Shown: in pieces, positions 2,734 to 20,155 of the stretch | Layout of the letters: each line of letters starts with the position of its first letter | How positions within the stretch are numbered: position 1 is the stretch's first letter | Source: a virus | Length of the DNA: 55,292 nt | Virus record (IMG/VR): IMGVR_UViG_3300022849_000036 | Span: 1-55,292 of that record | Strand: one strand, 5' to 3' | The notes under the pieces: model-generated | The model's input: the letters and a program-made list of their open reading frames with translations, nothing else | Databases searched by the model: none | Told to the model about the DNA's origin: nothing | Position numbers and translations under genes: made by a program

Positions 2734-2735
2734 GC

Positions 2736-3293: not shown

Positions 3294-3308
3294 GGTTCAA
3301 GAGTTTGA

Positions 3309-3383: not shown

Positions 3384-3398
3384 AATGTAGGAGACGCG

Positions 3399-3683: not shown

Positions 3684-3892
3684 ATCGGGCAGAACGACGG
3701 TATCGGACGGAGAAGGTTGCACGGTGGCGCGCATCGCTTTATCCATCGCCGATGAACTTTGTCGGCCGGTTCCGCAAGTGGAACCTGACAGATCGATGCA
3801 GTGTGTGTTGCATGGAAAAGTATTACGATATTCAGACGCAGCGGGTGAAGGATGAACGCCGCAATCCGCTGACAGAAGAAGTGGGGCTGTAG
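3680..3892 (+). CDS. Small basic phage protein (70 aa)
   Basis: Begins MNRAERRYRTEKV, a basic opening common in small phage proteins, and has a CSVCC cluster in the middle. ATGA overlap with the upstream gene. The stop codon lies inside the acceptor stem of tRNA-Ala (10-base overlap). Function unknown. Confidence 0.6.
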   Translation: MNRAERRYRTEKVARWRASLYPSPMNFVGRFRKWNLTDRCSVCCMEKYYDIQTQRVKDERRNPLTEEVGL

Positions 3893-3959
3893 CTCAGTTG
3901 GGATGAGCGCCTGCTTTGCAAGCAGGAGGTCGGGAGTTCGATCCTCCCCAGCTCCACCA
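3883..3959 (+). tRNA. tRNA-Ala (TGC)
   Basis: Acceptor GGGGCTG pairs with CAGCTCC, discriminator A, CCA encoded. Anticodon loop TTTGCAA (TGC). Normal D- and T-arms (GGGAG-TTCGATC-CTCCC). Confidence 0.92.
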
Positions 3960-3976
3960 GACCATATTTCTTACGG

Positions 3977-3989
3977 TATAATTACGCGC
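3977..3989 (+). promoter_or_regulatory. TATAAT-N7-ATG promoter (leaderless start)
   Basis: TATAAT at 3977-3982 is followed by TACGCGC and then the ATG of the next gene. With normal spacing the transcript would start on or next to the A of ATG. Near-identical blocks occur at 5078 and 9961. Confidence 0.5.
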
Positions 3990-4505
3990 ATGGAATGGTT
4001 GATCGACTATGATGCTTGGTTCTTCCACCGTGTCGAAGGGCTGCTCAAGTGGCTCGACGAATGGCTTTCGATCAGCCAGAAATATGCCGAGCGAGGCATG
4101 ATCGCGCTCTATCTGGTTTTGACGTTGCCCCCTGCGAAATGGACGCTGAGCTTGGTCCTGGTCAAGATCATATGTGCGCTTTCCATTGGCACCTTGATGT
4201 GGATGTTGCACAAGCGTCCTGCCGTCGTCAGAAAATACACGCAAAGAAGTCGCTTCGAGGCTGTGAATCGGATTATTCTGCAGGGAGTTTTTGGCGTGAT
4301 GGCGGCGGCTGTTCTTTTTGCGTTACCGCATCAATGGACGGATGTTCCGACGGCCTTGGCGCAGGTGGTTTATGTCGTGTTTTTTTATGCCACAGACATT
4401 ACCTCCGATGGGGAGCGCGGCCGGCGACGGAAGGCAGCACTGGCCGAGTTGAAAAAGATGTTTGGTACAGAGTGGATACCGAAGCCACTGCTGGTGCCGC
4501 GATGA
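3990..4505 (+). CDS. Membrane protein, unknown function (171 aa)
   Basis: ATG 3990 fits the TATAAT-N7 spacing and leaves no room for a Shine-Dalgarno. The protein has hydrophobic segments around residues 45-75, 93-113 and 120-145 (for example IILQGVFGVMAAAVLFA), an aromatic N-terminus and a basic C-terminal tail. No family recognised. The stop overlaps the start of the YkgJ-like gene, so the two may be co-translated. Confidence 0.65.
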   Translation: MEWLIDYDAWFFHRVEGLLKWLDEWLSISQKYAERGMIALYLVLTLPPAKWTLSLVLVKIICALSIGTLMWMLHKRPAVVRKYTQRSRFEAVNRIILQGVFGVMAAAVLFALPHQWTDVPTALAQVVYVVFFYATDITSDGERGRRRKAALAELKKMFGTEWIPKPLLVPR

Positions 4506-4879
4506 TTACGGCCAATACATTGCCGTGTTCTTCCTGCACTGCCCTTTGCTGCGGCCCTGTGCCCCTTTCTCGCGACAGGTTGGAAAAGATCAAGGCCTAC
4601 GTCCAAACAATGCCCAAGGCCGAGCGGAAGCGCTTAGCGGCGCAGAAGCGGGGTCAAGTGGATTGCAGATTTCTGGACAAAGCGAACTATCGCTGCGCGA
4701 TTTATCCGGTGCGTCCCTGGCTCTGCGAAGCGTTTGGCCGAGTAGAGAGAATGCGATGCCCCAAGACCGTGGGACTCGTCGAAGCCATCCCGCCGTTTTT
4801 GGAAGACGCGGGCTTTACTGGGGAATATGGAAGCGAAACTGTAGGGAATTCTGGCCAATTCGATTGGTTGAAACTTTAA
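4502..4879 (+). CDS. YkgJ-family cysteine-cluster protein (125 aa)
   Basis: Shows the family layout: CSSCTALCC near the N-terminus, then CRFLDKANYRCAIYPVRPWLC, which is the CxxY..RPxxC signature. These cysteines are thought to bind zinc or an Fe-S cluster; the function of the family is not established. Start ATG 4502 overlaps the stop of the membrane-protein gene by four bases. Confidence 0.8.
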   Translation: MITANTLPCSSCTALCCGPVPLSRDRLEKIKAYVQTMPKAERKRLAAQKRGQVDCRFLDKANYRCAIYPVRPWLCEAFGRVERMRCPKTVGLVEAIPPFLEDAGFTGEYGSETVGNSGQFDWLKL

Positions 4880-5050
4880 AAAAGGGCGACAAAGAAAACC
4901 GGCTTTGCCGCCGTCCCTAGTGTGATGCTGCGTGGTGACAGTCAGTACAACTTACGCCGTTAAAACGACTTGGACGTTAAAACCCGTTAATGTGTCGCAT
5001 TATTGCACAAAAAATGAATGCAGGCAAAAAAGGCGACAAAGTAGATTCCC
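4880..5050 (+). repeat. Two copies of a GGCGACAAAG hairpin element
   Basis: An A-run followed by GGGCGACAAAG occurs near 4880 and A-run plus GGCGACAAAG near 5028. Each can fold back on a downstream CTTTG-containing strand. The stretch has no gene of its own. It may hold a terminator of the upstream gene and a duplicated regulatory hairpin; neither copy has a good U-tract. Confidence 0.35.
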
Positions 5051-5077
5051 TTTGCCAGCTTGTGGACAGAATCGGGG

Positions 5078-5090
5078 TATAATTGCGGGC
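5078..5090 (+). promoter_or_regulatory. TATAAT-N7-ATG promoter
   Basis: TATAAT at 5078-5083, then TGCGGGC, then ATG. Same spacing as at 3977 and 9961; no clear -35 at 17 bp. Confidence 0.5.
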
Positions 5091-5345
5091 ATGACGAACT
5101 TGCAGCTAGCCCTGAGCATCGGTATTCCTTCGTTGCTGGTCCTGGTGGGGATCTTCCTGAACAATGCGCGTTTCGGTGCGATCGACAATCGTTTCACCGC
5201 GACGGATGCCCGAATGGACAACCGTTTTACTGCAATTGATGGCCGTTTGGATCGAATGCAGGCCGATTTGTCGCAGTTCTATATGATTCTTGGGCGGCAC
5301 GAAGCGGACATCAACAACCTGAAAGAGCAACGACGCAGCGCTTAA
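5091..5345 (+). CDS. Membrane-anchored coiled-coil protein (84 aa)
   Basis: One N-terminal hydrophobic helix (LALSIGIPSLLVLVGIFL) is followed by repeated FTATDARMDNRFTAIDGR units and a MQADLSQFYMILGRHEADI region with heptad character. It is a type I recall from Acidobacteriota genomes with no known function. The start is set by the TATAAT-N7 block. Small membrane-plus-coil proteins can be holin or spanin parts, but nothing here proves that. Confidence 0.65.
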   Translation: MTNLQLALSIGIPSLLVLVGIFLNNARFGAIDNRFTATDARMDNRFTAIDGRLDRMQADLSQFYMILGRHEADINNLKEQRRSA

Positions 5346-5383
5346 CGCCGTAGAAATTGCGCCGTAGCTTATGTAGAATGGCA

Positions 5384-5533
5384 GTGCAGCGGCGGCGTGG
5401 AAAGCAGGCACGCCTAGTGTTGGAACTACGCCTATCAGACCGAAGGCTAGGTACTGGTAAGGCCATAGCCATAGGCTGAATGCCCGGGGCCGAGGGCAAG
5501 AGGAGCTGGAGTAGCGCCCGGCCCGCTGCACCA
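5384..5533 (+). ncRNA. Candidate structured RNA ending in CCA
   Basis: No gene is credible here, yet the sequence is rich in nested complementarity. GTGCAGCGG (5384-5392) pairs with CCGCTGCAC (5523-5531) and would close a ~150-base RNA. Inside are GGCGTG/CACGCC (5394-5414), GGCTA/TAGCC (5445-5470) and TGCCC/GGGCA around 5480-5497. It ends CCA, immediately before tRNA-Arg. It is not a recognisable tRNA, tmRNA, RNase P or 6S RNA. Found by eye only. Confidence 0.45.
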
Positions 5534-5538
5534 AGTTT

Positions 5539-5615
5539 GGCCCCGTAACTCAGTTGGATAGAGTAGCGGTTTCCTAAACCGTTAGTCGCTGGTTCGATTC
5601 CAGTCGGGGCTACCA
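5539..5615 (+). tRNA. tRNA-Arg (CCT)
   Basis: Acceptor GGCCCCG with CGGGGCT (one G-U), anticodon stem GCGGT/ACCGT around TTCCTAA (CCT), T-arm GCTGG-TTCGATT-CCAGT, discriminator A and encoded CCA. Reads the rare codon AGG. Confidence 0.9.
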
Positions 5616-5795
5616 AGATTGACGGGTGAGGATCACCTCTCCCTGAACGGCTGGCCTGGCAATCAGGGAACTGCTCGTTTCAAGCGCGACGCGTCTAGCC
5701 GAGCGCACGACGAGTTCAGGAATGTCGGTGGAACAGTGGGGTGATTGGCTGCCGGGAAAGACCGGCAATTTCTTCAACGTCTTGCAATAGATTTT

Positions 5796-5803
5796 GCTAG
5801 AAT
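5796..5803 (+). promoter_or_regulatory. Extended -10 (TGCTAGAAT)
   Basis: TGC immediately before TAGAAT, about 14 bases before the ATG of the sigma-like gene. Upstream (5616-5795) no gene is seen; a GCCGG-GAAAGA-CCGGC hairpin at about 5753-5768 may be a terminator. Confidence 0.4.
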
Positions 5804-5816
5804 AAATCGAAAACAT

Positions 5817-6362
5817 ATGAGCACCGACGAGGATATTTCAGCGGTTGTCGAAGGCATATTCCATGAATATGCTCATCCCCGGATGGTGTTCGATCATGAC
5901 ACTGGCCTTTCCCCAGACGACAACCTGTACCAGATCAACAACGATTCCACCCTGATTCGCGAAGCGGGATTGTCGGCCGAAAAGCACGAGGCCGAAGTGC
6001 TGGCATGGCTGTCTCAGCATGATCAAACAGAGAAAGTTCAGGAAGAAAAAGAAAGAACCGTGTTGAGGCGCAAATACGGCCCCTGGTGTGAAAAAGCGCA
6101 AAAGGATGAAGCGGCGCTTTGTGCTGCGGCCGTGAAACGGAGCGGTTCAAAGCTGTCTGCGGGGGCAAAGAAGAATCTCGAAACAGTGCTCTATCGCATC
6201 CCCCCACCGTACGGCATATATTTCGTTCTTAGACACATCAACGGCCTGAAGAATGCGCAGATCGCGGCATTGGAAGATGTGCCTATCAGCGTCGTACAGA
6301 AAAGGGTTAAAAAAGCGATTTTTTGGGTAGAAATGATCGTAGCCGAACTGACAGAAAGATGA
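5817..6362 (+). CDS. Sigma-70 region-4-like protein (181 aa)
   Basis: The last ~55 residues read IPPPYGIYFVLRHINGLKNA followed by a helix-turn-helix, like sigma region 4 (usually LPxxxRxVFxLRHxxGLSxxEIA). The first ~120 residues are acidic and do not show sigma region 2. It may be a phage sigma-like or anti-sigma adaptor that redirects host RNA polymerase; this is inference. ATG 5817 fits the promoter at 5796; an upstream start would cross it. Confidence 0.6.
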   Translation: MSTDEDISAVVEGIFHEYAHPRMVFDHDTGLSPDDNLYQINNDSTLIREAGLSAEKHEAEVLAWLSQHDQTEKVQEEKERTVLRRKYGPWCEKAQKDEAALCAAAVKRSGSKLSAGAKKNLETVLYRIPPPYGIYFVLRHINGLKNAQIAALEDVPISVVQKRVKKAIFWVEMIVAELTER

Positions 6363-6364
6363 GT

Positions 6365-6736
6365 TCAGGAACCCGATCTCTCTGTCTTGAAGTTTTCCCA
6401 TAGAAAATCCGGGCTAAGTTCTATTCCGGATTCTGCCCAGCGAGGATCGCTGAGCGCCAGTCGGCGAAGATACGCGCGCAGATCGTCGTCCAGAACGTTT
6501 TCTACTTTGATGCCGTCATAAGGCTGGATCTCCTGACAAAGCGCCAGGAACGCTTTGAAGTAGCCTTGTCGACGGAATCTGGGATCGACTGTAATGTTGG
6601 CAATATCGAGATAGTGATGCATCTTGCGATCTGTGCCAAGATGCAACCCCTTGCGCACATAGACTTTTATGTACTCACCCGTAAGCCAGGTGTTGCGTGT
6701 GTACGAAATGAAAAATCTGACCAGTATTTCTTCCAT
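6365..6736 (-). CDS. GNAT-type acetyltransferase (123 aa)
   Basis: Contains ITVDPRFRRQGYFKAFLALC, the acetyl-CoA-binding motif A of GNAT proteins (VxPxxRxxGxxxxL). Preceded by GGGAGGA on the minus strand, which sets the start at 6736. Convergent with the sigma-like gene, divergent from the gene at 6780. Substrate unknown. Shorter than most GNATs but the core fold could fit. Confidence 0.7.
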   Translation of the reverse strand: MEEILVRFFISYTRNTWLTGEYIKVYVRKGLHLGTDRKMHHYLDIANITVDPRFRRQGYFKAFLALCQEIQPYDGIKVENVLDDDLRAYLRRLALSDPRWAESGIELSPDFLWENFKTERSGS

Positions 6737-6779
6737 CGTTATTTCCTCCCGTTTAGAATACAACGTCAAGGAGGCCACA

Positions 6780-6953
6780 ATGAACGAAGAAAAGAAAGCC
6801 CAAAAAGCCGATTTGAAAAAGCGTATGTTGGAAGAGACGCTCCAGAAGAAGGAAGCCGAAGCTGAGCACAGACGCCAATTGCTGGCCAGCCTTAGCCCAA
6901 AAACCAGAGAGATGGCGCGGCGCGATTTTGCCAAGCTGGGACTCTACCAGTAA
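6780..6953 (+). CDS. Small charged helical protein (57 aa)
   Basis: ATG 6780 with AAGGAGG upstream. Almost all Lys, Glu, Arg and Leu; likely one long helix. A TAGAAT hexamer in the divergent gap at about 6754 may be its -10. No function known. Confidence 0.6.
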   Translation: MNEEKKAQKADLKKRMLEETLQKKEAEAEHRRQLLASLSPKTREMARRDFAKLGLYQ

Positions 6954-6965
6954 AAAGGAAATCGG

Positions 6966-7454
6966 ATGAATGTGCCTGAGGCGATCCCTGATGTGGTATC
7001 GAAGCGGAATCATTTTCGGCCTGCCGCCGAGCTGGCAGAAGATGCCCTGGAGTATCTGCCAGAGCAGTACAAGCATCCGGGATTCAAGAGTTGGCTGATC
7101 CGATATACGGAAACGGTGATTCGGGACGTGGCCTACTCCTTCAGCACGGCGGCAGAGCGGGGAATTCAACAGGCGGCCAGTCTACTTTGCGATCCGGAGT
7201 ATTACGCAACGCAGCGCAAGCGGCGCATGAACGAGCGCCAGAGGATGCAGGAAGAACATGCCAAGCAGGAATGGGACCGGCTGGAGCGGATGAACTGCCC
7301 GACCGCGGAGCAGGTTGGAGAGCAGATTCTGTTTTCTGAGCGCCAAGTTGAGTATCACCGGACCGAGCTGGCCAGGTATGAAGCGAGCCTGGAAAGGCTG
7401 CGTGCCATCGAGCCGAAAAACATTCGGCTGGTTCCTTCCAAAAAAATCCAGTAG
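6966..7454 (+). CDS. Hypothetical protein with coiled-coil C-terminus (162 aa)
   Basis: Follows the previous gene by 12 bases. Residues ~90-150 are strongly helical (MNERQRMQEEHAKQEWDRLE), while the N-terminal half is mixed. No domain recognised. It ends just before the AGTCCGG palindrome, which could terminate the two-gene unit. Confidence 0.65.
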   Translation: MNVPEAIPDVVSKRNHFRPAAELAEDALEYLPEQYKHPGFKSWLIRYTETVIRDVAYSFSTAAERGIQQAASLLCDPEYYATQRKRRMNERQRMQEEHAKQEWDRLERMNCPTAEQVGEQILFSERQVEYHRTELARYEASLERLRAIEPKNIRLVPSKKIQ

Positions 7455-7461
7455 CGCAAAA

Positions 7462-7486
7462 AGGCAGTCCGGAATCTGGACTGCCT
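7462..7486 (+). repeat. AGTCCGG palindrome, possible terminator
   Basis: AGGCAGTCC-GGAATCT-GGACTGCCT, a nine-pair hairpin between two convergent genes. The core recurs at 17905, 37234, 44061, 48520 and 49408. No long U-tract follows. Confidence 0.65.
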
Positions 7487-7508
7487 AAGAAATCTTTGGT
7501 CATTTGAA

Positions 7509-7835
7509 TCACTCAAAAATCGTAACAAGTTTTGCGAGGACTTCTTCCAAGATGGGCTTTGGCAAAGTGTCGATCTTGCGTGCATTACGAGCGCTAAGAT
7601 CAAGCACACGGGGCTGATCGCAGCGAACAATGCCCATTGTTTCAATCCCTGAAATCGGAACAGCAAATCCAAGGCGACGCGCGAAATCTCCGCCGCCTGT
7701 GATCGGACAGACTACGGGCAATTTGGTTGCTTGGTTGAATTCTGTTGCGGAAACGATGACGATTGGTCGACTTCCTTGCTGCTCACGGCCTAGCGTCGGA
7801 TCGAGCGAAACCAGATAAATGTCTCCACGCTTCAT
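7509..7835 (-). CDS. mazF: MazF-type mRNA interferase toxin
   Basis: 108 aa, the usual MazF/PemK size. Opens MKRGDIYLVSLDPTLGREQ and continues SRPIVIVSATEFN, both hallmark segments, with VVCPIT further on. Expected to cleave mRNA and to be neutralised by the product of the upstream gene. ATG 7835 overlaps the antitoxin stop by four bases. Confidence 0.9.
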   Translation of the reverse strand: MKRGDIYLVSLDPTLGREQQGSRPIVIVSATEFNQATKLPVVCPITGGGDFARRLGFAVPISGIETMGIVRCDQPRVLDLSARNARKIDTLPKPILEEVLAKLVTIFE

Positions 7836-8089
7836 AGCAGTTCGCCACCCACAGCGCGATTGTTGACCCATTCGCGATCTTCCTTTGTCTGCGGGCGCGA
7901 GTAGTCGGACATGGCCAGCAATTTCTTGAGCGTGTAATGTGACTGCGGCGTTGGTTTGACGACAAGGCGGCCATCCGCAATAGCCACGCCTACTGCAGTT
8001 CCTACCTGCATGTTTAATTGCTCAAGAAATGCGGGGGGAACAACCAGCATGATTGATCCGCCGACTTTGCGCAGATTTGTGGTGTACAT
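7832..8089 (-). CDS. mazE: MazE/AbrB-type antitoxin
   Basis: 85 aa with the SpoVT/AbrB swapped-hairpin sequence: LRKVGGSIMLVVPPAFLEQL followed by VGTAVGVAIADGRLVV. The C-terminal tail (SRPQTKEDREWVNN) would wrap the toxin. The pair probably represses its own promoter, lying in the 8090-8195 gap shared with the divergent gene at 8196. Confidence 0.88.
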   Translation of the reverse strand: MYTTNLRKVGGSIMLVVPPAFLEQLNMQVGTAVGVAIADGRLVVKPTPQSHYTLKKLLAMSDYSRPQTKEDREWVNNRAVGGELL

Positions 8090-8195
8090 AATGCGTCTCC
8101 AATAAAACAAATATATAACTTTTTGGGTGCAATGGCAATCCCTATTACGCTTGGGAATGTAGACTTCCGGCAGTTCCCGAGCGTATATTGCGTGC

Positions 8196-8738
8196 ATGGA
8201 TTGGCGCGAGATTTGCCGCAAAGTTCACGACGAAGGCATTCAAACACTCAGCAAAGGCGAATCCCTTCCTTTTATGGTGCGGGCCTACGACCACAATGGA
8301 TGTGCTGCGCAAAGAGATTTGATTCTTACGAATGGCATTGACGATGCTGGTCGTGCGGCTTTGAGAACCATGACTCGGGAGATATTTTCTGAAATTCATT
8401 TGCCGGCAGCTCTGGTACAGTCGGACGCAATGGCAGTCAATGGAAGCAAATTCGCCAAGTATTTTGGGCTTGCGGAAAAGATCCCCTTCAAAGAATACGA
8501 AAAGGAATACATTCGCATTCTTGCAGAAAGATTCGACGGAACTGTGGCAAATTTGCCACGGGAGCTATGGGTTGATGCATTGGTCACGAGCATCAAGGGT
8601 CCACAGATCATGCCTGCCAATTTCATGACCTTTTACGAGAAAAACGCAAAAGGAAAAATTGAATTTGCGCCGACCGAGGAACGACCTGCGGCTGCAGTCA
8701 ACTTTTTGCCGGACTGGTGGAAAAACACGATAAATTAG
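8196..8738 (+). CDS. Hypothetical protein (180 aa)
   Basis: ATG 8196 follows TATATT-GCGTGC, a near match to the leaderless-start block, and no Shine-Dalgarno is visible. The product is soluble and mixed, with no motif I recognise. It lies between mazEF and the DUF7873-like gene. Confidence 0.6.
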   Translation: MDWREICRKVHDEGIQTLSKGESLPFMVRAYDHNGCAAQRDLILTNGIDDAGRAALRTMTREIFSEIHLPAALVQSDAMAVNGSKFAKYFGLAEKIPFKEYEKEYIRILAERFDGTVANLPRELWVDALVTSIKGPQIMPANFMTFYEKNAKGKIEFAPTEERPAAAVNFLPDWWKNTIN

Positions 8739-8787
8739 TTGCGCGCATGGCCAGGGTGATGTATATTCCCATCGTCGGGAGGGGACC

Positions 8788-9555
8788 ATGTCAAAGCTGC
8801 ACGAACTGCTGGCCGTGCATGGAAGTTTAAGCGGTCAGGCATCGAAGGTGCGTCAGGATCTGATTGCCACCTTCGAGAAAAAACGCCATCTGTTCGAAGG
8901 GCGGATGAAGAGCTTCACGCCCAACGAAGAAGTTGAAAGAATCTCTGCAATCGAAGAGCAGCAGGACGTACAGTCCACGGTTGCTCAGCAGATTGAGTGG
9001 GTTTCAAAGCACCTGGCCAAGGCCGTCGACATCGCCTACCAAGTGGATGCGGCCAACACGCAGGCAAAGGCCGACGTGGTGACAGAGGATGGAGAGATCC
9101 TGGCCAAGGACGTACCGGCAACGACTCTTCTTCAGCTTGAAAAGCGCGTAGGCGAGTGGAAGGAACTGATTGTATCCATCCCCACCTTGGACCCGGCAAA
9201 GGGCTTCAAACCGGATGAATCGCGCGGCAAGGGATACTGGAAGGCTCGGGACGTAACCAAGTTTCGGACCCGGAAGGACAAGAAGCCGTTGGTGCTCTAT
9301 GACGCCACGGACAAGCATCCTGCGCAGACACAGGTGATGGATGTGGATACCGTGATTGGCACGATTCTTGAGCAGGAGTGGAGCGCATTGATCACGCCGT
9401 CGACAAAGGCAGATCTGCTCGATCGTGTGGAGACACTTTATCGCGCTGTGACCAAAGCTCGTTCGAAGGCAAACGAGCAGGACACAAGCGTGAGCGACAA
9501 AAAGATTGGCGCTGGCTTGTTGGATTACGTGTTCAAGCCGCTGTTCGACGCCTAA
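8788..9555 (+). CDS. Phage protein of unknown function, DUF7873-like (255 aa)
   Basis: Begins MSKLHELLAV, then a helical N-terminal region, a central LYDATDKHPAQTQVMDVDTVIG segment and a C-terminal FKPLFDA tail. This layout resembles a family of phage and bacterial proteins that I know as DUF7873, with no established role. GGGAGGGG lies a few bases before ATG 8788. Confidence 0.6.
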   Translation: MSKLHELLAVHGSLSGQASKVRQDLIATFEKKRHLFEGRMKSFTPNEEVERISAIEEQQDVQSTVAQQIEWVSKHLAKAVDIAYQVDAANTQAKADVVTEDGEILAKDVPATTLLQLEKRVGEWKELIVSIPTLDPAKGFKPDESRGKGYWKARDVTKFRTRKDKKPLVLYDATDKHPAQTQVMDVDTVIGTILEQEWSALITPSTKADLLDRVETLYRAVTKARSKANEQDTSVSDKKIGAGLLDYVFKPLFDA

Positions 9556-9557
9556 AC

Positions 9558-9698
9558 GGTTGGGTGGGGCAGAAATGCCCAATCCAGGCTCAGACTCAAA
9601 CTTATCTTCAGGTTCAACCCCGGTCACTGAAACCGGATCAGACTTTCACCCAAAGATTTATCGCAGCGAAACGATAGCGGAGTAGGCGAAACCACCCA
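9558..9698 (+). ncRNA. Possible folded leader upstream of the permuted tRNA
   Basis: TTGGGTGG (9560-9567) is complementary to CCACCCAA (9692-9699). Between them are GGGCA-GAAA-TGCCC, a GNRA-capped hairpin, and CCGGT-CACTGAA-ACCGG. This could be a structured leader that helps process the tRNA, or an intron-like RNA; group I core motifs were not found. Confidence 0.3.
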
Positions 9699-9780
9699 AA
9701 CGGAAGACGCGGGTTCGAACCCCGTAGGGGCCCCCAAAAAATATGGCCCTTTGGCTTAGCGGTAGAGCGTCCGGATTAGA
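9699..9780 (+). tRNA. Apparently permuted tRNA (Glu-like), 3' half before 5' half
   Basis: 9699-9736 is the 3' half of a tRNA: ...CGGA, T-arm GCGGG-TTCGAAC-CCCGT, acceptor strand AGGGGCC, then CCCA. After seven bases comes a 5' half from 9744: GGCCCTT, TG, D-arm GCTTAGCGGTAGAGC, then GTCCGG. The two acceptor strands pair over seven positions, and TCCG pairs with CGGA in the anticodon stem. No matching halves lie outside. It resembles tRNA-Glu by eye; the anticodon cannot be read. A broken pair of pseudogenes is the alternative. Confidence 0.5.
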
Positions 9781-9822
9781 CTGAGGGTTTTGGGCTATGA
9801 AGCAAGGCGCAGCTGCACAACT

Positions 9823-9895
9823 CATCGACTAGCTCAGTTGGTAGAGCTTCTGACTTGTAATCAGAATGTCGCTGGTTCAAATCCAGCGTCGATAC
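9823..9895 (+). tRNA. tRNA-Thr (TGT)
   Basis: Anticodon stem TCTGA/TCAGA encloses CTTGTAA, giving TGT. D-arm CTCAGTTGGTAGAG and T-arm GCTGG-TTCAAAT-CCAGC are normal. The acceptor CATCGAC/GTCGATA has a C-A mismatch at its first position. CCA is not encoded. Confidence 0.88.
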
Positions 9896-10086: not shown

Positions 10087-10277
10087 GGCTGGACATGGAG
10101 GGAAACGATGTCTACTTGGGCGATGGGCTTTACGCTTCTTTTGACGGCTACCAGATCGAGTTGTACGCATCGGATGGAATCCGCAAAACCAACCAAGTTT
10201 ACCTAGAACCCGCTGTCCTTGCTGCTTTTCTGCATTATGTCGAGTCTCTGAAAAAAGCAGCAGAGGAAGAAGTTTGA
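10083..10277 (+). CDS. Small conserved-type phage protein (64 aa)
   Basis: Reads GNDVYLGDGLYASFDGYQIE and later VYLEPAVLAAFLHYVE, a small-protein type often seen in phages near replication or early genes, role unknown. ATGA overlap with the upstream membrane peptide. Its stop codon (10275-10277) lies inside the isolated CRISPR-type repeat. Confidence 0.7.
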   Translation: MRLDMEGNDVYLGDGLYASFDGYQIELYASDGIRKTNQVYLEPAVLAAFLHYVESLKKAAEEEV

Positions 10278-10297
10278 GTGCATTGGGTAAATGCAAC
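10261..10297 (+). CRISPR. Isolated CRISPR repeat on the cas12 5' end
   Basis: The last ~27 bases match the array repeat: AGTTTGAGTGCATT, loop GGGTA, AATGCAAC. The stem is TGCATT/AATGCA. It covers the stop of the upstream gene. The following ~30 bases, where a spacer would be, contain the Shine-Dalgarno and start of cas12. Such single repeats upstream of cas genes are known to give self-regulating crRNA-like guides in other systems; here that is inference. Confidence 0.7.
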
Positions 10298-10320
10298 AGT
10301 TCACCGAAAGGATCAAAAGC

Positions 10321-12603
10321 ATGATCAAAGAATTGACCTACAAAGACGATTGCGTCTTTGTGCACGCCGCAGAAACGTCACTAAAGACCACCAAGGCTTT
10401 TACGCATGGCCGCATCGTGTTTGACGAGAGCACGCGCCTGGCAACGTTTGCACAGTTGCCGGCAGTGGCGATTCCCGCAGATCTTCATCTCAAGACAGAT
10501 ACACCAATGAATTTTCAACTGGTGGCACCTGACGGCGAACTGCGTCCGCAGAAACGATCTGGAGTGCTGCTGGTAGACGAAAAGCAGCCGACCATCTTCC
10601 ACATTGGCGGAATGTCAAAAACGCCGCGTCAGTTTTCGGCAGAAGATGGATGGTCAAATGCCATCTATAAATACCGTGCGTACTTTACCCATGAAGGCAC
10701 GAACACGAGCGGCGAAGTACCTGAGTGGCTCAAAGCATCGATCACGCGACAAAGGGACCTCTGGAACCGCCTGGCTTGGCTTTGCCGCGAAGCACGGCGC
10801 CAATGCTCTTCTGGTTCCCCCGAGGAGATTACCGATTTTGTCCAAACCGTTATTTTGCCAGCGATCGATGCTTTTAACGACGCGCTCGGTCGCTCCAAAG
10901 ACAAGATGAAGCACCCAGCGAAGCTGAAGGTCGAGATGCCCGGCCTAGATGGTTTGTGGCATTTTGTTGGTGATCTGCGGAAGCGCGTCGACAAAGATCG
11001 TCCCGTGCCAGAAGGTTTGCTGGAAAAGGTGATTACCTTTGCCCAGCAGCACAAGACGGACTACACCGCGCTCGACGAGTTTGTAAAGAATTTTGGACCG
11101 ATTGCCAACAAGGAAGCAAAGGATCTCAAGCTACGGAGCTTTGAAATTCGGCCGACAATCACCGCCTTCAAGGCAACACTCGATCGCCGCAGGACCAAAA
11201 AGCTGACTTGGTCCGAGGGCTGGCCACTCATCAAGTACAACGACAGCCCCAAGGCCGGCGATTGGGGTCTGCATTACTATTTCAACAAGGCTGGCGTCAG
11301 TTCCTCATTGCTGGAGTCCAAGGAAGGCGTACCGGGATTGTCGTTTGGAGCGCCACTCGATCCTGCCAATACGGGGCATGAGTTAATCCAGACGGTAGGC
11401 GGTGGCAAAACGCTTCGAGAAGCGGAGATTTCCATTCGTGGAGACGATAACCAGCAATGGCGTTTTCGTTTTGCGGTCATTCAGTGGCGACCGTTGCCCT
11501 CAAACTCCCACGTAAAAGAGTGGAAACTTCTATTGCAGGATGGCAAACTTTGGCTCTGCTTGGTGGTTGAGCTGCAACGTGACCTACCGACTTCCACTGC
11601 CCTTGCAGCCGGTTTGGATATTGGCTGGCGGCGTACAGAAGTGGGAATTCGGTTTGGCACACTGTATGAGCCAACGAGCTGGACAGTGCGCGAGCTTGTG
11701 ATGGACTTTGAGAAATCGCCCAAAGATCACAAAGATCGTGTGCCATTCCGCATCGATATGGGACCCACACGCTGGGAAAAACGCAATATCACGCGGCTAT
11801 TCCCTGATTGGAAGCCGGGAGATGGAATCCCCAACGCGTTGGAGATCAGAACCGCGTTGCAGACTCGCCGTGACTACTTCAAAGATACGGCCAAGATTGC
11901 GCTGCGCAAGCAACTTGGGGAAAACACGCCTGCATGGCTGGAGAAAGCCGGTCGTAGTGGATTGCTGCGGCTCAAGGAGGAATTCAAAGACGATGTTGAT
12001 GTGCAGAGCATCCTGAATGCGTGGGGAAAAAACGAGGAACAAATTGGGACTCTTGCGGCCGCATACAGCAAAAAAGTCAGCGCGCGTATTGAATACAACC
12101 AGCTGCAAGTCGCCCATGATGTTTGCAGCTACCTGAAGAAAAAGAGCATTACACGGTTGATCCTGGAAAAGAACTTTCTGGCCAAAATTGCGGTCCACCA
12201 GGAGAACACCGATCCCGTAAGCTTGAAGCGCTCGCAGAAATACCGGCAATTTGCTGCTGTTGGCCGCTTCATCTCTCTGCTCAAGTACACTGCCGTGAAA
12301 TACGGAATTGTGACTGAGCCGTATGAGGCAATGAACACAACGCGCATGTGCTCATATTGCAATCATCTGAATCCATCGACGGAAAAGGATCGCTTCCAGT
12401 GTGAAGCATGTGGAAGGCTGATTGACCAGGATTACAACGCTGCGGTAAATCTGTCGCGCTTTGCCTGCGATCCCAAGCTGGCAAAGCTGGCGCTGGGAAA
12501 TGAAGACGAATCTGAAGAAGACGCACAGACGCCGGGATTTGAAGACGAAGAAGAAGACACGCAGTCGCTGGAAGGTGACGAAAGCGGCACAGACGATCTT
12601 TGA
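10321..12603 (+). CDS. cas12: Cas12-like (type V) RNA-guided nuclease, 760 aa
   Basis: The C-terminal half is a split RuvC nuclease: RuvC-I GLDIGW (D433), RuvC-II LILEKN (E616) and RuvC-III DQDYNAAVNL (D704). Before RuvC-III is a zinc ribbon, CSYC and CEAC (C677, C680, C694, C697). The N-terminal part has a helical recognition-like region (QRDLWNRLAWLC near 145) and a beta-rich stretch ending RPLPSNSHVKEWK, reminiscent of the wedge domain in V-C and V-M effectors. The tail is very acidic. Length falls in the phage CasPhi/Cas-lambda range but I cannot assign a subtype. ATG 10321 is chosen for its AAAGGA; the earlier ATG 10291 lies in a CRISPR repeat. All three acidic residues are present, so DNA cleavage is expected. 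Confidence 0.85.
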   Translation: MIKELTYKDDCVFVHAAETSLKTTKAFTHGRIVFDESTRLATFAQLPAVAIPADLHLKTDTPMNFQLVAPDGELRPQKRSGVLLVDEKQPTIFHIGGMSKTPRQFSAEDGWSNAIYKYRAYFTHEGTNTSGEVPEWLKASITRQRDLWNRLAWLCREARRQCSSGSPEEITDFVQTVILPAIDAFNDALGRSKDKMKHPAKLKVEMPGLDGLWHFVGDLRKRVDKDRPVPEGLLEKVITFAQQHKTDYTALDEFVKNFGPIANKEAKDLKLRSFEIRPTITAFKATLDRRRTKKLTWSEGWPLIKYNDSPKAGDWGLHYYFNKAGVSSSLLESKEGVPGLSFGAPLDPANTGHELIQTVGGGKTLREAEISIRGDDNQQWRFRFAVIQWRPLPSNSHVKEWKLLLQDGKLWLCLVVELQRDLPTSTALAAGLDIGWRRTEVGIRFGTLYEPTSWTVRELVMDFEKSPKDHKDRVPFRIDMGPTRWEKRNITRLFPDWKPGDGIPNALEIRTALQTRRDYFKDTAKIALRKQLGENTPAWLEKAGRSGLLRLKEEFKDDVDVQSILNAWGKNEEQIGTLAAAYSKKVSARIEYNQLQVAHDVCSYLKKKSITRLILEKNFLAKIAVHQENTDPVSLKRSQKYRQFAAVGRFISLLKYTAVKYGIVTEPYEAMNTTRMCSYCNHLNPSTEKDRFQCEACGRLIDQDYNAAVNLSRFACDPKLAKLALGNEDESEEDAQTPGFEDEEEDTQSLEGDESGTDDL

Positions 12604-12623
12604 TGAAAACAAACAAGATCGAG

Positions 12624-12654
12624 GCAGGGGAGGGGCATTTTTGCCCCCCCTCCC
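12624..12654 (+). terminator. Hairpin after cas12
   Basis: GGGAGGGGCA pairs with a TGCCCC...CTCCC strand across a short T loop. It separates cas12 from the array promoter. T-runs follow only after ~12 bases. Confidence 0.5.
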
Positions 12655-12677
12655 AAAGCATTTTGCATTTTTTGGAT

Positions 12678-12685
12678 GCTATAAT
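12678..12685 (+). promoter_or_regulatory. Array promoter (TGCTATAAT)
   Basis: Perfect TATAAT with an extended TGC, 20 bases ahead of the first repeat. A small GTGC/GCAC hairpin (12696-12709) sits between the promoter and the array. Confidence 0.6.
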
Positions 12686-12705
12686 GTTTTTATAGTGCTG
12701 AAAAG

Positions 12706-13987
12706 GCACCAGCGTAGTCAAAGTGCATCGAGCAGATGCAACACAAACTCAGAGCCTGTAACGAGCTTAAGCGCAGGTAGCAACGTGGTTTTAGTGCATC
12801 GAGTAGATGCAACGCACTTGAAAAATACGGAACCAAGTAGCAACGCGGTTTAAGTGCACTGGATAAGTGCAACACCAATCTTCCGCACAAGTGTATGAAC
12901 TGTAGCAAGTAGCAACGCAGTTAAAGTGCGCTGGACAAGTGCAACGTTTCCTCCTACAGCTGCATCCATCTCGTCCAAAAGTAGTAACGCAGTTTGAGTG
13001 CACTGGACAAGTGCAACGCTTTATCGCAGTCTATGAATTTATGAATGATTCGTAGTAATGCGGTTTTAGTGCGCTGGACAAGTGCAACTTGCTTGGGTCG
13101 CCCTTATCTCTTGGCCGATAGTGTAGTAACGCGGTTTTAGTGCACTGGACAAGTGCAACGCCAGTGCCGTCGAAACGGCAAGCCGAGGGGCATTGTAGCA
13201 ACGCAGTTTGAGTGCACTGGACAAGTGCAACCTTCGGAATCGGCGCTTTATTGACGCTTTGTCACGCAGTAATGCAGTTTTAGTGCACTGGACAAGTGCA
13301 ACACGCTGAAGTAGTAACGCGGTTTCAGTGCACTGGACAAGTGCAACTATGACAATGTACGCTCCTCGAATGAAACTACGCGTAGCAACGCAGTTTTAGT
13401 GCACTGGATAAGTGCAACCCATCGAATTTTGCGATGAAGTGCAGGGTGTCTCGTAGCAACGTAGTTTCAGTGCACTGGACAAGTGCAACCGCCCACAGAT
13501 AACGTGCTCCTGCTGGACCCGGCGTAGCAACGTAGTTTTAGTGCACTGGACAAGTGCAACATCCAGATATGCGAGGTAAATTTCACGGCTTTACGCAGCA
13601 ACGAAGTTTTAGTGCATCGGATAGATGCAACCACATAAATGTTGTCTTTGCCCATCTCGGCACCTCGTAGCAACGAAGTTTTAGTGCACTGGACAGGTGC
13701 AACCCGTTCGTCCAGAGAGCATCATCGGAGACATTGGGCGTAGCAACGCAGTTTTAGTGCACTGGACAAGTGCAACCACTTAAGTTTGCCTTTTTTGTCA
13801 ACATGCACAGTAGCAACGAAGTTTTAGTGCACTGGACAAGTGCAACATAGTCGGGTTCCCACTCCATTGGGAGATTATTGTAGCAACGCAGTTTTAGTGC
13901 ATCGGATAGATGCAACTGTATACGTCTGACGAAGAAGTGGACATTCCACCGTAGCAATGCGGTTTTAGTGCATCGAATAGATGCAAC
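12706..13987 (+). CRISPR. Main CRISPR array, 19 repeats
   Basis: 37-base repeats, typical form starting GTAGCAACGCAGTTTTAG and ending with stem TGCACT, loop GGACA, stem AGTGCA, then AC. Spacers are mostly 33-36 bases, with exceptions of 23 (12814-12836) and 8 (13303-13310). The first two and last two repeats, plus the one at 13595, use the TGCATC/GATGCA stem of the distant arrays; two repeats have a G-U pair. The hairpin precedes the spacer, so the array is read on the plus strand, with cas12. The layout fits tracr-independent processing. Confidence 0.95.
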
Positions 13988-14401: not shown

Positions 14402-14929
14402 ATGCACATGGCCGCTGCTGTTCAAGCAGTCCGCAACAGCCGAATTGACATTCCTGATGGAAAGCGCCGACCACAGGATTTCTGGAAATATGTTGACCGT
14501 ACTGGCAACTGTTGGAACTGGACAGGAACCGTAGTGGCGCGCTACGGACAAATTTGGTGGAACGGTAAGGTTTTCAAAGCAAATCGGTTGGCGTATCTGT
14601 TGTTTGTTGGTCCTATCCCTGACAGATTACTTGTGTGTCATAGCTGTGACAACACTCTTTGTGTTCGTCCAAGCCATCTGTTTTTAGGAACGGACCTAGA
14701 TAACCAAGCGGATGCTGCTGCAAAGAACCGTAAACCGTGGGGAGAAAACAATCCCCATGCAAAGCTGACGCTTGAACAAGTTGGAACGATCCGGAAAATG
14801 TACTCTTGCGGATCTGCCTCACAAAAACAAATTGGCAAGCAGTTCGGCGTCAGTCAGTTCTGCATTTGGACCATCGTGAAAGGAGTCACATGGAAAAGAG
14901 CCCTGTGCCCTCACTTGACAAAATCGTAA
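14402..14929 (+). CDS. HNH endonuclease (175 aa)
   Basis: NCWNWTG near the N-terminus, then LVCHSCDNTLCVRPSHLFLG: the HNH motif with paired cysteines for zinc. The C-terminus carries a helix-turn-helix-like QKQIGKQFGVSQFCIWTIV, as in homing endonucleases that recognise DNA with an extra domain. GAGG precedes ATG 14402. It overlaps the exonuclease gene by 40 bases, so it may be an inserted homing gene. Confidence 0.85.
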   Translation: MHMAAAVQAVRNSRIDIPDGKRRPQDFWKYVDRTGNCWNWTGTVVARYGQIWWNGKVFKANRLAYLLFVGPIPDRLLVCHSCDNTLCVRPSHLFLGTDLDNQADAAAKNRKPWGENNPHAKLTLEQVGTIRKMYSCGSASQKQIGKQFGVSQFCIWTIVKGVTWKRALCPHLTKS

Positions 14930-15942
14930 GCAAAGCTAGATTGCGTCGTCAAATTCACGTTTCTGCGCTGAATATGGCGGCAGATTGCGGCCAGCGCTTT
15001 CTTTTTCGCTACATCCTCGGCATCAAGTCGCCACCGAACGCATTTCTGCTGGTGGGCAAATCCACAGACGAATCGGTGACGCAGGATCTCGACCACAAGA
15101 TCGAGACAGGGGAGCTGTTGAAGCGCGACGACGTGCTCGCGATCTCGGCCGCCAAGTTCGAGCAGGAGCAGAAAAACGAACCCATCGAACTCGACCAGGA
15201 CGAGAAAAAGGACGGCAAAAGCCTGGACCAGGTATTGGGCGAGGCAAAGGACAAAGCGCTTTCTTTGTCCGGATTGCACCACGACGAGGCGGCACCGAAA
15301 ATTCAGCCAGTCCGCACACGCCGTAAATTCTCCGTGGACATGGACGCTTTTTTGCGCTCCCGGGCAAAAGAATTGCACGCTTCGGCAGAAGCGACGCCCG
15401 ACAAATACGCGGCCAATATCCTGCACGCACAGGCGCGGTCATTAAATGCCGCTGCCCGCACAGGCGTTGATTTCGTGGGTGAGCAGGACGTGCAGGAAAT
15501 TGTGCATGACGGAGATAAAGAATTGCTCGTCATCCGTGACACAAAGACATCCGCTAAATCGCCTACTCCGTCGTACATGGACGGGAACAATAAAGCGGGC
15601 ACGGCCGATGATTCCAACCAGTTGACTGCGTACGCGACTGCCAGCTACGTCGTGGACGGGAAATTGCCCGACAAAATGGTGTTGGATTTTCTGGTCCGCA
15701 CGAATGCCGCAAAGCCGACATTAAAATACGTGCCCACGGTCACAACACGCAGTATAGACGACGTGCAGGTATTTTTAAACCGCTTTGCCAATTTGATCCA
15801 CGCCATGAAAACCGGCGTCTTTGTACCGGCGAATCAAAGCTGGTGGGGATGCGATCGAAAATGGTGCGGATATTACCAAATCTGCGGCTATGTGAGACAT
15901 CCCGTGCTGGTACAGATCACAAAAGGAGAGGAAAATGCCTGA
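14890..15942 (+). CDS. PD-(D/E)XK nuclease, RecB/Cas4-like (350 aa)
   Basis: C33 in ADCGQRFLFRY, nuclease core with DTKT (D217, K219) and NQLTAYA (Q244), and C321, C326, C332 at the end (CDRKWCGYYQIC). The one-plus-three cysteine layout is that of Fe-S RecB-family nucleases such as Cas4, AddB and Dna2. Directly followed by RecT, so it most likely is the 5'-3' exonuclease partner in phage recombination. A role in CRISPR adaptation is possible but unsupported. AAAGGAG sets ATG 14890. Confidence 0.85.
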   Translation: MEKSPVPSLDKIVSKARLRRQIHVSALNMAADCGQRFLFRYILGIKSPPNAFLLVGKSTDESVTQDLDHKIETGELLKRDDVLAISAAKFEQEQKNEPIELDQDEKKDGKSLDQVLGEAKDKALSLSGLHHDEAAPKIQPVRTRRKFSVDMDAFLRSRAKELHASAEATPDKYAANILHAQARSLNAAARTGVDFVGEQDVQEIVHDGDKELLVIRDTKTSAKSPTPSYMDGNNKAGTADDSNQLTAYATASYVVDGKLPDKMVLDFLVRTNAAKPTLKYVPTVTTRSIDDVQVFLNRFANLIHAMKTGVFVPANQSWWGCDRKWCGYYQICGYVRHPVLVQITKGEENA

Positions 15943-17014
15943 AACTGGAATGATGGTCGCAAATACGCAGGGCATGACGGTCGTTAATCAGGACTGGGAG
16001 CGGCCAGAAAACCTTGAACTGATCAAGCAAACAGTGGCACCAGGGTTGTCTGACCCGGAATTCATGATGTTCTGCCATGTGGCGCGCGTGCGGCGACTCG
16101 ATCCGCTCCAAAAGCAAATCTATGCCATCAAGCGGCGCACATGGAATTCAGAGACTGGCCAATATGAAGAGCGGATGGTGCTCCAGGTGGGCATTGACGG
16201 CTTCCGGTCGGTCGCCAATCGCACCGGCCTGTACATGCCGTCTGACAAGCTGCCGCTGGTGGAAGGGCAGGGAACAGACAATCTTCGCGTGACAGTGTGG
16301 GTGCAAAAATGGCACGAACAGTCTTCGCAATGGAAAGAATTTGGCGCAACGGCGTACTATCGGGAATCTGTGCAAACCAAGAAAAACCGGGCAACAGGTA
16401 AGCTGGAGCCTGTCTCCCAATGGGAAAAAATGCCGCTCGGCCAGACCGAAAAGTGCGCTGAATCGAAGGCCATTCGCCGCGGTTGGCCGGAAGAGCTGGG
16501 GCAGTTTTATATCCCGGAGGAAGTGTCGTCGACGATTGAAGGAGATCCCGTGCCGCCAGTAAACCACAAGCTGGACAAAGTCCGGCGCGAGCTGGGCACG
16601 CTCAAGGTATCTTCGGAGCCCAATCGCGGCCATGGCCATGAAGGAACGCAGCGGGCACCAGACGCCGTAATCTGCGCGGAGTGCCGCACCTTGAATGGCC
16701 ACACGGCAGACTGCTCGCTGGGCAAGAAGGCGAGTCAGAAAAAGCCCAGCAAGCGGGAAGAATGGGAGACGCGGCCTGGCCATGACCCCAAGATCCATAT
16801 TTCTTTTGAAGATGCCGTGACGCTGTTCGATATTCAGCGCAAGCTGAACCTGACAGAAGATCAGATCAAGGCGTTTCTCGACAAGGAGTTTGAAGTTCAG
16901 CATCGGTACTTGATCCGGCAGGATCAGTTCCAGCAAGTGCTCGATGCCATTCAAGAACAGTTTGGCAAAAAGCAAGAAAAGGGCAGTGATCCTGCGGACA
17001 AGTTGTTCCTGTAA
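15935..17014 (+). CDS. bet: RecT/Bet single-strand annealing recombinase
   Basis: 359 aa. The N-terminal ~200 residues contain FCHVARVRRLDPLQKQIYAI and VLQVGIDGFRSVANRTGLY, both typical of the Bet/RecT family. The C-terminal ~150 residues are an extra region with a CAEC...C motif and a charged end. Anneals complementary single strands after resection by the partner nuclease. Starts eight bases inside the nuclease gene with AGGAGAGG upstream. Confidence 0.92.
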   Translation: MPETGMMVANTQGMTVVNQDWERPENLELIKQTVAPGLSDPEFMMFCHVARVRRLDPLQKQIYAIKRRTWNSETGQYEERMVLQVGIDGFRSVANRTGLYMPSDKLPLVEGQGTDNLRVTVWVQKWHEQSSQWKEFGATAYYRESVQTKKNRATGKLEPVSQWEKMPLGQTEKCAESKAIRRGWPEELGQFYIPEEVSSTIEGDPVPPVNHKLDKVRRELGTLKVSSEPNRGHGHEGTQRAPDAVICAECRTLNGHTADCSLGKKASQKKPSKREEWETRPGHDPKIHISFEDAVTLFDIQRKLNLTEDQIKAFLDKEFEVQHRYLIRQDQFQQVLDAIQEQFGKKQEKGSDPADKLFL

Positions 17015-18566: not shown

Positions 18567-18844
18567 TTGGGGGCACTTCTTAAAAAGCAAGGAATAAGTC
18601 CTTTGTTTTGTTCGTTCTAAGTATTCCGTGGTAAAGTCCAACTCCATATATATAACCTAAACTTATCTCGACGTTTCTCCCCTGTTTTTACCCTTTTATC
18701 CCATTTAAAACAAAAGCTTTATCCTTTTTGCCTATCGGCTTTTTGGCTCATTAGCGTTTAGGAGAGTTGGGGACGATCATCTGTAAACGGCGCTTTTCTG
18801 GGGGCATTTTTTGGTACACTTTGACTCATGCGATGTGCCCCCAA
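18567..18844 (+). other. Integrase upstream region with repeats (possible att arms)
   Basis: TTGGGGGCAC (18567-18576) is repeated in inverted form as GTGCCCCCAA (18835-18844), with a related GGGGGCATTTTTTGG near 18800. ACTTATCTCGAC at 18661-18672 recurs downstream of the integrase at 20243. This is what integrase arm sites look like, but no core attachment site can be proved. A TACACT at 18815 may be the -10 for the integrase. Confidence 0.4.
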
Positions 18845-18877
18845 TACGCCATCGGAGAGAAGGAACAGGCAGAAATC

Positions 18878-20155
18878 ATGAAAATAGTGGGTGAACTTTC
18901 AAACTTGCAGTGTGAAAAGGCAGCGGTTAGGCCGAAGCCCTACAAGATTTTTGACCATGGCGGTCTTCATTTGCTCATCGCACCGACTGGCGGAAAGCTG
19001 TGGCGCTGGAAGTACCGCTATGAAGGCAAGCAGAAGCAAATGGCTTTTGGTGGATTTCCCGTCGTGTCTTTGGCCCAGGCACGGCTTCTCCACGCCGAGG
19101 CGCGGGCAAAGCTGGCCGCTGGCACTGATCCTATGGCGGAGCGCCAGGAAGCCAAGCATGAACTGCGAGAAGCGCTGGCTGCGAAGAAAAAAAAGACAAC
19201 GACCGAACCGAACTTTGAAAATCTGGCGCGCCAATGGTTCGCTTGGTGGAAAAACGACAAAAACCAAAAGTATATTGATAGAGTTCAAAGTCGGCTGGAA
19301 GGCGATACAATTCCGCGACTCGGTAAAATGCGTCCAGAAGACATCCAACGCATGGATATTGTGAATGCAATTAAGGCAACAGATAATCGCGGTTCGCATG
19401 ATAGTGCTCGACGCAACTTGCAGACGATCCGGCAAATTTTTACTTGGGGACAGAATAACGGAGTGCTGGACGGGAACAGCTTGAATCCTGCCACGAGTAT
19501 CCGTTCAGAAGACATTCTTTCCAGAACTGTGAAAGGGCATTTTGCGCGTATTTCGCTCTCCGAATTGCCTGCCCTGATTCAGAAGATGGATCAAAATACT
19601 GGATACCCCGTGACGCGTCTTGCCATGGAATTGATGAGCCTGACCTTCTTGCGTACTACAGAATTGCTTTCTGGACGCTGGAAGGAAATCGATTGGGACC
19701 AAAAGCAGTGGATCATCCCTGCGGAACGGATGAAGGGCAGGAGACAGGAAAAGAGAGCGCACTTGGTTCCACTTTCGCGGCAGAGTCTTGATGCGTTCAA
19801 GCGACTGTACGAACTTTCTGGTTCTGGAGAATATATGTTCCCGAGTATTGGTGGCCACGCATCAAAGACGATCTGCAGCAACATCATACTGCATACGCTG
19901 AAACGCCTTGGCTATCATCGGACGATGACAGGGCATGGATGGCGAGGTCTTGCATCGACCTATCTGCACGAGAAAGGTTTCAATCATCTTCACATTGAAA
20001 CGCAACTTTCCCATGTTTCTGGAGCTGGCGATACGGTTTCACAGGCTTACAACTATGCGCAATATCTTGAACCGCGTCGACAAATGATGCAAGCCTGGGC
20101 AGATTTTTTGGACGAGTGCCGCAATAAAGCAACGCGAGAAATTCCCGCCGCCTAA
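18878..20155 (+). CDS. int: Tyrosine integrase, P4/DUF4102 type (425 aa)
   Basis: The N-terminal DUF4102 arm-binding domain reads KPYKIFDHGGLHLLIAPTGG. The catalytic domain has FLRTTELL (R259), HGWRGLAST (H353, R356), QLSH (H379) and the AYNYAQYL tyrosine (Y391). All active-site residues are present. Catalyses site-specific integration and excision with the help of the nearby regulators. ATG 18878 matches where the family normally starts; ATG 18833 is possible. GAAGGAA is 13 bases upstream. Confidence 0.92.
   Translation: MKIVGELSNLQCEKAAVRPKPYKIFDHGGLHLLIAPTGGKLWRWKYRYEGKQKQMAFGGFPVVSLAQARLLHAEARAKLAAGTDPMAERQEAKHELREALAAKKKKTTTEPNFENLARQWFAWWKNDKNQKYIDRVQSRLEGDTIPRLGKMRPEDIQRMDIVNAIKATDNRGSHDSARRNLQTIRQIFTWGQNNGVLDGNSLNPATSIRSEDILSRTVKGHFARISLSELPALIQKMDQNTGYPVTRLAMELMSLTFLRTTELLSGRWKEIDWDQKQWIIPAERMKGRRQEKRAHLVPLSRQSLDAFKRLYELSGSGEYMFPSIGGHASKTICSNIILHTLKRLGYHRTMTGHGWRGLASTYLHEKGFNHLHIETQLSHVSGAGDTVSQAYNYAQYLEPRRQMMQAWADFLDECRNKATREIPAA

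Follow-up and report, generated by a model that had tools for sequence, protein, structure and literature searches.

The whole of the linear viral record IMGVR_UViG_3300022849_000036, 55,292 bases long and possibly a fragment, was analyzed in this work and is called the window. It carries a gene for a compact Cas12-type effector that adjoins a CRISPR array. The full open reading frame (ORF) spans 10291-12603 (770 aa), and the ATG at 10321, giving a protein of 760 aa, was chosen as the start by alignment with relatives. The original prediction, made from the bare letters of this DNA, had described an effector of about 760 residues with D433, E616, D704 and a four-cysteine ribbon, followed by a 19-repeat array; both parts were borne out, the effector from this ATG and the array as 19 units of 37 nt. 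A single RuvC and zinc-ribbon effector next to a CRISPR array is the arrangement of a type V CRISPR-Cas system. In total, 54 repeats are spread over five places in the window (3, 1, 19, 11 and 20), all on the plus strand; the 35 in the other four places were not part of the original prediction. The principal features are the following.

10321-12603, plus strand: Cas12-type effector gene, 760 aa, with RuvC residues D433/E616/D704 and zinc ribbon C677/C680/C694/C697
10321-10599, plus strand: beta-rich domain at the N terminus (about residues 1-93), preceding the region similar to the beginning of Cas12m proteins
10261-10297, plus strand: a lone degenerate repeat, 23 nt upstream of the effector ATG
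12680-12685, plus strand: TATAAT hexamer in a leader that by eye resembles the leader of the related phage L003
12706-13987, plus strand: array C, 19 mutually different repeats of 37 nt, each with a paired 3' hairpin
2317-2485, plus strand: array A, three repeats of the same family
35988-36729, plus strand: array D, 11 repeats of the same family
40015-41390, plus strand: array E, 20 repeats of the same family

We consider it probable that these features form a type V CRISPR system that is carried by a phage and belongs to a V-M-related branch, with scattered arrays used in competition between phages and with RNA-guided DNA binding as the probable mode of action. The basis lies in the sequence, namely in the effector and its relatives, the arrays, the pairing preserved in repeats, the adaptation genes of two sister phages and two protospacers. 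From these we infer expression, processing of the CRISPR RNA (crRNA), a protospacer-adjacent motif (PAM), binding as opposed to cutting, and the competition itself.

Scans of viral contigs yielded five further kinds of phage that bear the effector, L001 (near-copy L021), L003, L017 (near-copy L018), L019 and L020, which with the window makes six, and two contigs from Acidobacteriota genomes carry it as well (L004, frameshifted near its start, and L009, 726 aa). Identity to the window effector across this family is 55 to 63%. An array adjoins the effector in all six phage kinds, and mini-arrays adjoin both Acidobacteriota copies. In the search of 396 Acidobacteriota genomes that was the source of L009, six had a match, four of these to the RuvC tail alone. 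No match to the effector was obtained in 50,697 phage records, and the 11 matching records among 72,556 plasmids comprised one Cas12m-like protein and otherwise transposon-type proteins. A PADLOC Cas12u1 search of 199 Acidobacteriota genomes detected nothing, but its controls were silent too and it carries no information. In a literature search judged on titles and the beginnings of abstracts, we recognized no paper on this effector family. The L004 copy (PLGM01000217.1, 155-2733, from an Acidobacteriaceae genome) is probably a decayed one: besides the frameshift, its third Asp is Asn and it has three eroded repeats; by eye, efflux-type genes lie downstream. In L009, three repeats on the minus strand at about 1180-1360 have another stem (GGCTC/GAGTC) in what is by eye the same AGT-hairpin-AAC frame.

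The statement in the original prediction that adaptation genes are missing holds for the window, in whose 55,292-base linear and possibly partial record no Cas1 was found, but it does not extend to the family. L003 and L020, two of the six effector-bearing phage kinds, carry cas4, cas1 and cas2 behind the effector, and their Cas1 proteins pass the NCBIfam type I-C model with 473 and 466 bits (cut-off 385). The array next to cas1 is uniform in L003 (11 of 11 repeats identical) and nearly uniform in L020 (8 of 14 identical, mean of 2.3 differences), the other measured arrays within these two records have means of 8.3 to 9.8 differences of 37, and where an effector-bearing record has no cas1, the cas-adjacent array shows 2.9 to 7.7 differences. 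Two arrays depart from this pattern, in records with no cas1 in view, namely the 22 identical repeats at a contig end in G408 (25274-26812) and a 7-unit array of G405 with a mean of 1.9 differences. The effector and adaptation genes of G408 may lie just past the end of that contig.

Among the eight family members the catalytic triad reads D-E-D in five, E-E-D in two and D-E-N in one. The RuvC-I residue D433 is replaced by Glu in L003 and L017, both of which have open frames, and D704 by Asn in the frameshifted L004. We favour binding over cutting because D-E-D Cas12m proteins bind double-stranded DNA without cutting it, according to the available text of PMC11013384, and because L003, whose adaptation module looks complete, has Glu in place of D433. 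It is possible, though clearly less probable, that the effector is an ordinary RNA-guided DNA nuclease whose intact D-E-D cuts phage DNA, the substituted members being decayed copies. The intact triad in five of eight members and the additional frameshift of the D-E-N member would fit such a nuclease; the open frames of both E-E-D members do not, nor does L003, which with cas4-cas1-cas2 and 11 identical repeats has no look of decay, and the Cas12m proteins that leave double-stranded DNA uncut have a D-E-D triad themselves.

The repeat unit is 37 nt long and the median spacer 34 nt. Its conserved part is the last 21 nt, which consist of A-G, six pairs around a 5-nt loop, and A-C. Folding with RNAfold confirmed the predicted 3' hairpin adjoining the spacer in all five family repeats that were folded, the one from L020 having an extra pair; the folding energy by itself was little informative (z from -0.12 to -2.44). 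In the window, all 54 repeats are fully paired despite six stem types, and the 5' part is more variable. When the 3' arms of the window were dealt out anew, a mean of 32.5 repeats were paired, with a maximum of 42 in 2000 rounds. Array C taken alone is paired in 19 of 19 units against a reshuffled mean of 11.9, yet some shuffles reach 19. The 297 distinct repeats of the full set of records include 282 paired ones, compared with a mean of 180 (maximum 198) in 1000 shuffles and of 240 (maximum 253) when shuffling was kept within records. The repeat finder demands at least four of five pairs, which biases these counts toward pairing; the unit spacing of 45 to 74 nt inside the window arrays means that no unit was skipped there. 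Two units with broken hairpins at array ends (L017 at 5914, L020 at 11422) were missed by the later repeat finder, three weak L019 repeat matches before 8290 are noise, and two weak, unrelated matches of the repeat scan (33023, plus strand; 31686, minus strand) were dropped. Pairing maintained across six stem types suggests that the arrays have been kept for function, and we count it in favour of a working system.

The conserved part also resembles a known crRNA handle. In the portion of PMC10442227 available, the Cas12m2 handle is described as A(-24) and G(-23), positions -22 to -17 paired with -8 to -3, then A(-2) and C(-1). Set against this description, the family handle follows the identical frame, its loop being three bases shorter (5 nt in place of 8 nt). 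The repeats of the six effector-bearing records begin this frame with AG in 219 of 221 cases, end it with AC in 218 and pair fully in 214. By analogy, a G:A contact may also form in the family handle.

Other effector-bearing records likewise have repeats in two to five places (26 in G002, 32 in G003, 50 in G399, 26 in G401 and 33 in G402), and in L001 a 7-repeat array lies upstream of the effector. One repeat pattern led to 22 viral contigs, with the effector in three (G002, G399 and G400); in 18 of the 22 a search detected neither effector nor Cas1, and one contig lay outside that search. Several of these contigs are plainly fragments: the window has spacers in common with G404, G411 and G412, G419 shares spacers with G404 and G412, and G404 breaks off inside array C exactly where the effector would be expected. 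It therefore does not follow that array-bearing phages lack the effector. In the 396 Acidobacteriota genomes, the repeat pattern occurs in that of L004 alone. Between the window and G404, array D is identical; in array E one spacer differs at the same position, one unit is lost and a few single bases are changed; and in array C four of the eight spacers that G404 shows are shared, all on the trailer side. The change within array E suggests recombination rather than gain at the leader end, and it is our guess that RecT, encoded behind array C, takes part in it.

The scattered arrays might also be relics, with the cas-adjacent array the one that works, which we regard as unlikely. Scattered arrays of at least five units in effector-bearing records are indeed heterogeneous, their repeats differing on average at 5.5 to 10 of 37 positions, and the identity of array D in the window and G404 also fits this view. 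Such relics would not be expected to keep the hairpin in every window repeat while the 5' part varies, or to exchange a spacer in place as in array E, and the one protospacer match of the window stems from this same scattered array.

That match emerged when 295 spacers were compared over their full length with 2.24 million positions of collected, mostly phage, sequence, on both strands and with arrays masked. Two of the 295 spacers match other array-bearing phages, with 4 and 6 mismatches, and the best of 590 shuffled spacers had 8. Spacer 4 of the G405 array matches G410 with 4 mismatches of 34 and a perfect first 10 nt; the gene targeted there, at 82 nt from its start, encodes 260 aa, belongs to a PHROG without known function and has portal and tape-measure genes nearby. 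Spacer 8 of window array E matches G415 at 29 of 35 positions, four of the six mismatches falling in one codon phase, and its target overlaps the start of a 174-aa gene that is primase-like by eye. Both spacers read antisense to the target gene and CTTC stands directly 5' of both protospacers, although two protospacers with CTTC do not make a PAM. With BLAST, two matches of the 297 spacers exceeded 34 bits, compared with none for 2970 altered spacers, and the one from G405 to G410 was kept. A 21-nt BLAST match in L043 was dropped, L043 having been fetched for that match. An earlier BLAST of 98 spacers gave a best score of 32.2 bits (shuffled, 30.2) and none of 34 or more. L147 (8 mismatches) was not counted, having been fetched by its own seed, and the pattern matches of the G405 spacer in L147, L148 and L149 (8, 14 and 12 mismatches over 34 nt) were taken as chance. 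For the leader-side spacers of L020 and L001, matches to the first 20 nt were confined to the record of origin and, in the case of L001, its near-copy.

To place the effector, we ranked profiles with PADLOC 2.0.0, using five Cas12m-like plasmid proteins and a TnpB as yardsticks. The best profiles for family effectors are PDLC00930 (named Cas12u1) and its near-twin PDLC01692 (PADLOC name Cas12f), at 6.6e-23 and 5.9e-23 for the window effector and 1e-23 to 2e-31 for L019, L020 and L009. The match is confined to the C-terminal half (about residues 384-723 in the window), whereas the five Cas12m-like proteins, which share the same top profiles (four at 2e-92 or better, L036 at about 1e-76), match nearly end to end; V-M similarity over the whole protein is thus not seen. 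One of these five comes from Allomeiothermus (Meiothermus) silvanus, the species of MsCas12m, and is presumably that protein. The TnpB yardstick ranks other profiles first. Cas12m-type profiles therefore stand above other Cas12 and TnpB profiles, and Foldseek and hhalign agree; subtype V-U1, to which the Cas12u1 model refers, is now named V-M, according to the text seen of PMC11013384. The sole Pfam match above cut-off is a Cas12f1-like TNB domain (3.1e-13). The best Protein Data Bank (PDB) match of the family profile is UnCas12m4a (PDB 23vu; 4e-11 across 108 residues of RuvC and ribbon), a protein of 614 aa that is absent from our tree and for which the literature search found no paper. Using a poor full-length model, Foldseek returned Cas12m first (8pm4, 4e-8; 8hhl, 3e-7) and then a Cas12f. 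The V-M-like wedge proposed in the original prediction found support in this ranking, in Foldseek and in hhalign, which aligned a Pelobacter Cas12m-like protein at 96% over 353 columns, including the wedge motif and the RuvC half. The AlphaFold2 model of residues 1-124 was better, with a mean predicted local distance difference test score (pLDDT) of 80 and blocks of 86-92 across residues 1-90, and the best PDB match of this N-terminal domain had E 0.2. By eye, YKYRAYF, which starts at residue 116, resembles the Cas12m start.

In trees, the family forms one clade (100/100) on a long stem of 1.82 changes per column. It lies outside the group of eight Cas12m-like proteins (93/93) as well as that of five TnpB-like proteins (100/99). 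The four Cas12m clades named in the accessible part of PMC10442227 were not sampled one by one, and the result holds for this sample alone. T011 was a wrong ORF in the first tree, and the second left out T010 and T011; L029-L032 look like TnpB proteins. These data support a separate deep branch outside the sampled Cas12m-like proteins, as had been suspected, and the subtype, once judged unplaceable, is narrowed to the V-M side. Because PADLOC profiles, Foldseek on the poor model, profile alignment and the crRNA-handle frame all point to V-M, the effector is probably kin to Cas12m and probably works like it, and V-M membership itself goes beyond the evidence of an eight-protein tree.

V-M Cas12m (MmCas12m2, GoCas12m, MsCas12m) gives the family its best profile and fold matches and has the same handle frame G-stem-loop-stem-AC; reading by eye adds a common wedge motif, HRxLP/HRxIP, and x-x-G-W at RuvC-I. 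A common window repeat and the repeat of the A. silvanus Cas12m-like locus share their first 10 nt, a likeness noticed post hoc. Unlike the sampled Cas12m-like proteins (525-664 aa), family effectors have 726-763 aa and an extra N-terminal beta domain, although two of the sampled proteins, from Pelobacter and Manganitrophus, also carry their own N-terminal extensions. V-M systems are carried by plasmids and some prophages, in the text available of PMC11656645; the present family differs in its own deep clade, in cas4-cas1-cas2 in two phages and in arrays scattered over the phage genome.

Kinship with CasPhi or Cas-lambda, which the original prediction had raised on account of the length of about 760 aa and the phage setting, is very improbable. 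Both are compact phage-encoded Cas12 proteins by name in what was seen of PMC12607003, a likeness of description, and no such entry appears among the profile, PDB, Foldseek and VIA-align matches listed, where Cas12m leads; with no direct comparison made, this absence does not exclude them. A TnpB with chance repeats nearby, suggested by below-cut-off matches of RuvC and ribbon to TnpB models, can be dismissed, being contradicted by arrays kept beside the effector throughout the family and by its separation from the five TnpB-like proteins.

In the proposed mechanism, one effector would be served by arrays spread across the phage genome. The array transcript would be cut upstream of the 21-nt handle, and the effector, guided by the crRNA, would reach DNA adjoining a 5' TTC-like PAM in other phages with such arrays, in competition during the prophage state or mixed infection. 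Silencing by DNA binding, as in Cas12m, would be more likely than cutting.

Several results weigh against this reading. The promoter claimed for array C consists of the TATAAT hexamer in its L003-like leader, and a consensus promoter scan found none before array C or array E. The window triad is intact, as in five of eight members, and may allow cutting. Protospacers number two, with none for array C; 50,697 phage records gave no spacer match for two arrays, and the L001 array had none in 396 Acidobacteriota genomes at E 1e-4, a search that had no positive control. Array C gave three matches in these genomes (E 0.002 to 0.009 per genome), one being the L004 repeat array itself and two of a size expected by chance over 396 genomes. 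The handle frame is legible by eye in just four of eight Cas12m-like loci (in L037 and L038 the repeat found is a different one, and in L034 and L039 there is none). The full-length model has a pLDDT of 53, Foldseek template modelling scores are about 0.2, and VIA-align lists RNA polymerase (Z 7.7) directly after Cas12m at ranks 1 to 4 (8.9 to 8.0). Finally, the family does not fall inside the Cas12m clade of the eight-protein sample, and Cas12m as its sister group had support of 56/21 in the first tree, the second being an unrooted three-group tree.

The surroundings contain further features that bear on the nature of the element.

14851-17014: PD-(D/E)XK nuclease and RecT, directly behind array C
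18767-20155: tyrosine-type integrase (PHROGs; class named by eye)
41454-42197: serine recombinase, directly after array E (PHROGs; class named by eye)

Ten window proteins were compared with PHROGs, and the matches include integrase, antirepressor, primase/helicase, endolysin, DNA methyltransferase and serine recombinase. Because of these matches and of the nuclease and RecT behind the array, the window is likely a temperate phage. Its hosts are probably soil Acidobacteria, since two Acidobacteriota contigs carry the effector. Similar nuclease/RecT ORFs lie behind the arrays of L001 and L017 and may be partners in repeat exchange. Near the record end, a 619-aa acetolactate-synthase-like thiamine-pyrophosphate enzyme (399-2258), with its best NCBIfam match below cut-off, may be a host gene or a phage-carried metabolic gene. 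ARAGORN found six transfer RNA (tRNA) genes on the plus strand (243-9895), five of them also found by Rfam, and by eye a tRNA-like sequence precedes the L003 effector.

Virus-borne mini-CRISPR arrays in inter-virus conflict, aimed at related viruses in the available text of PMC11656645, offer a parallel; in the present case bacteriophages carry 54 repeats in 55 kb together with an effector of their own. A bolder and less probable reading is that temperate phages have a distinct type V subtype of their own, with a single effector that draws on the scattered arrays; after loss of cas4-cas1-cas2, guides would be reshuffled by inter-phage recombination at repeats and not newly acquired, the 21-nt handle alone would stay under selection, and some phages may have nothing but arrays and borrow the effector of another. 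The family offers a natural experiment: arrays next to cas1 are uniform or nearly so, and most others erode except for the presumed crRNA handle, a pattern that separates bases needed by the effector from those needed solely by spacer acquisition, with 297 distinct natural repeats for testing. With this finding the V-M side of type V comes to include phages that have adaptation genes, and guide-based conflict among soil phages becomes open to experiment.

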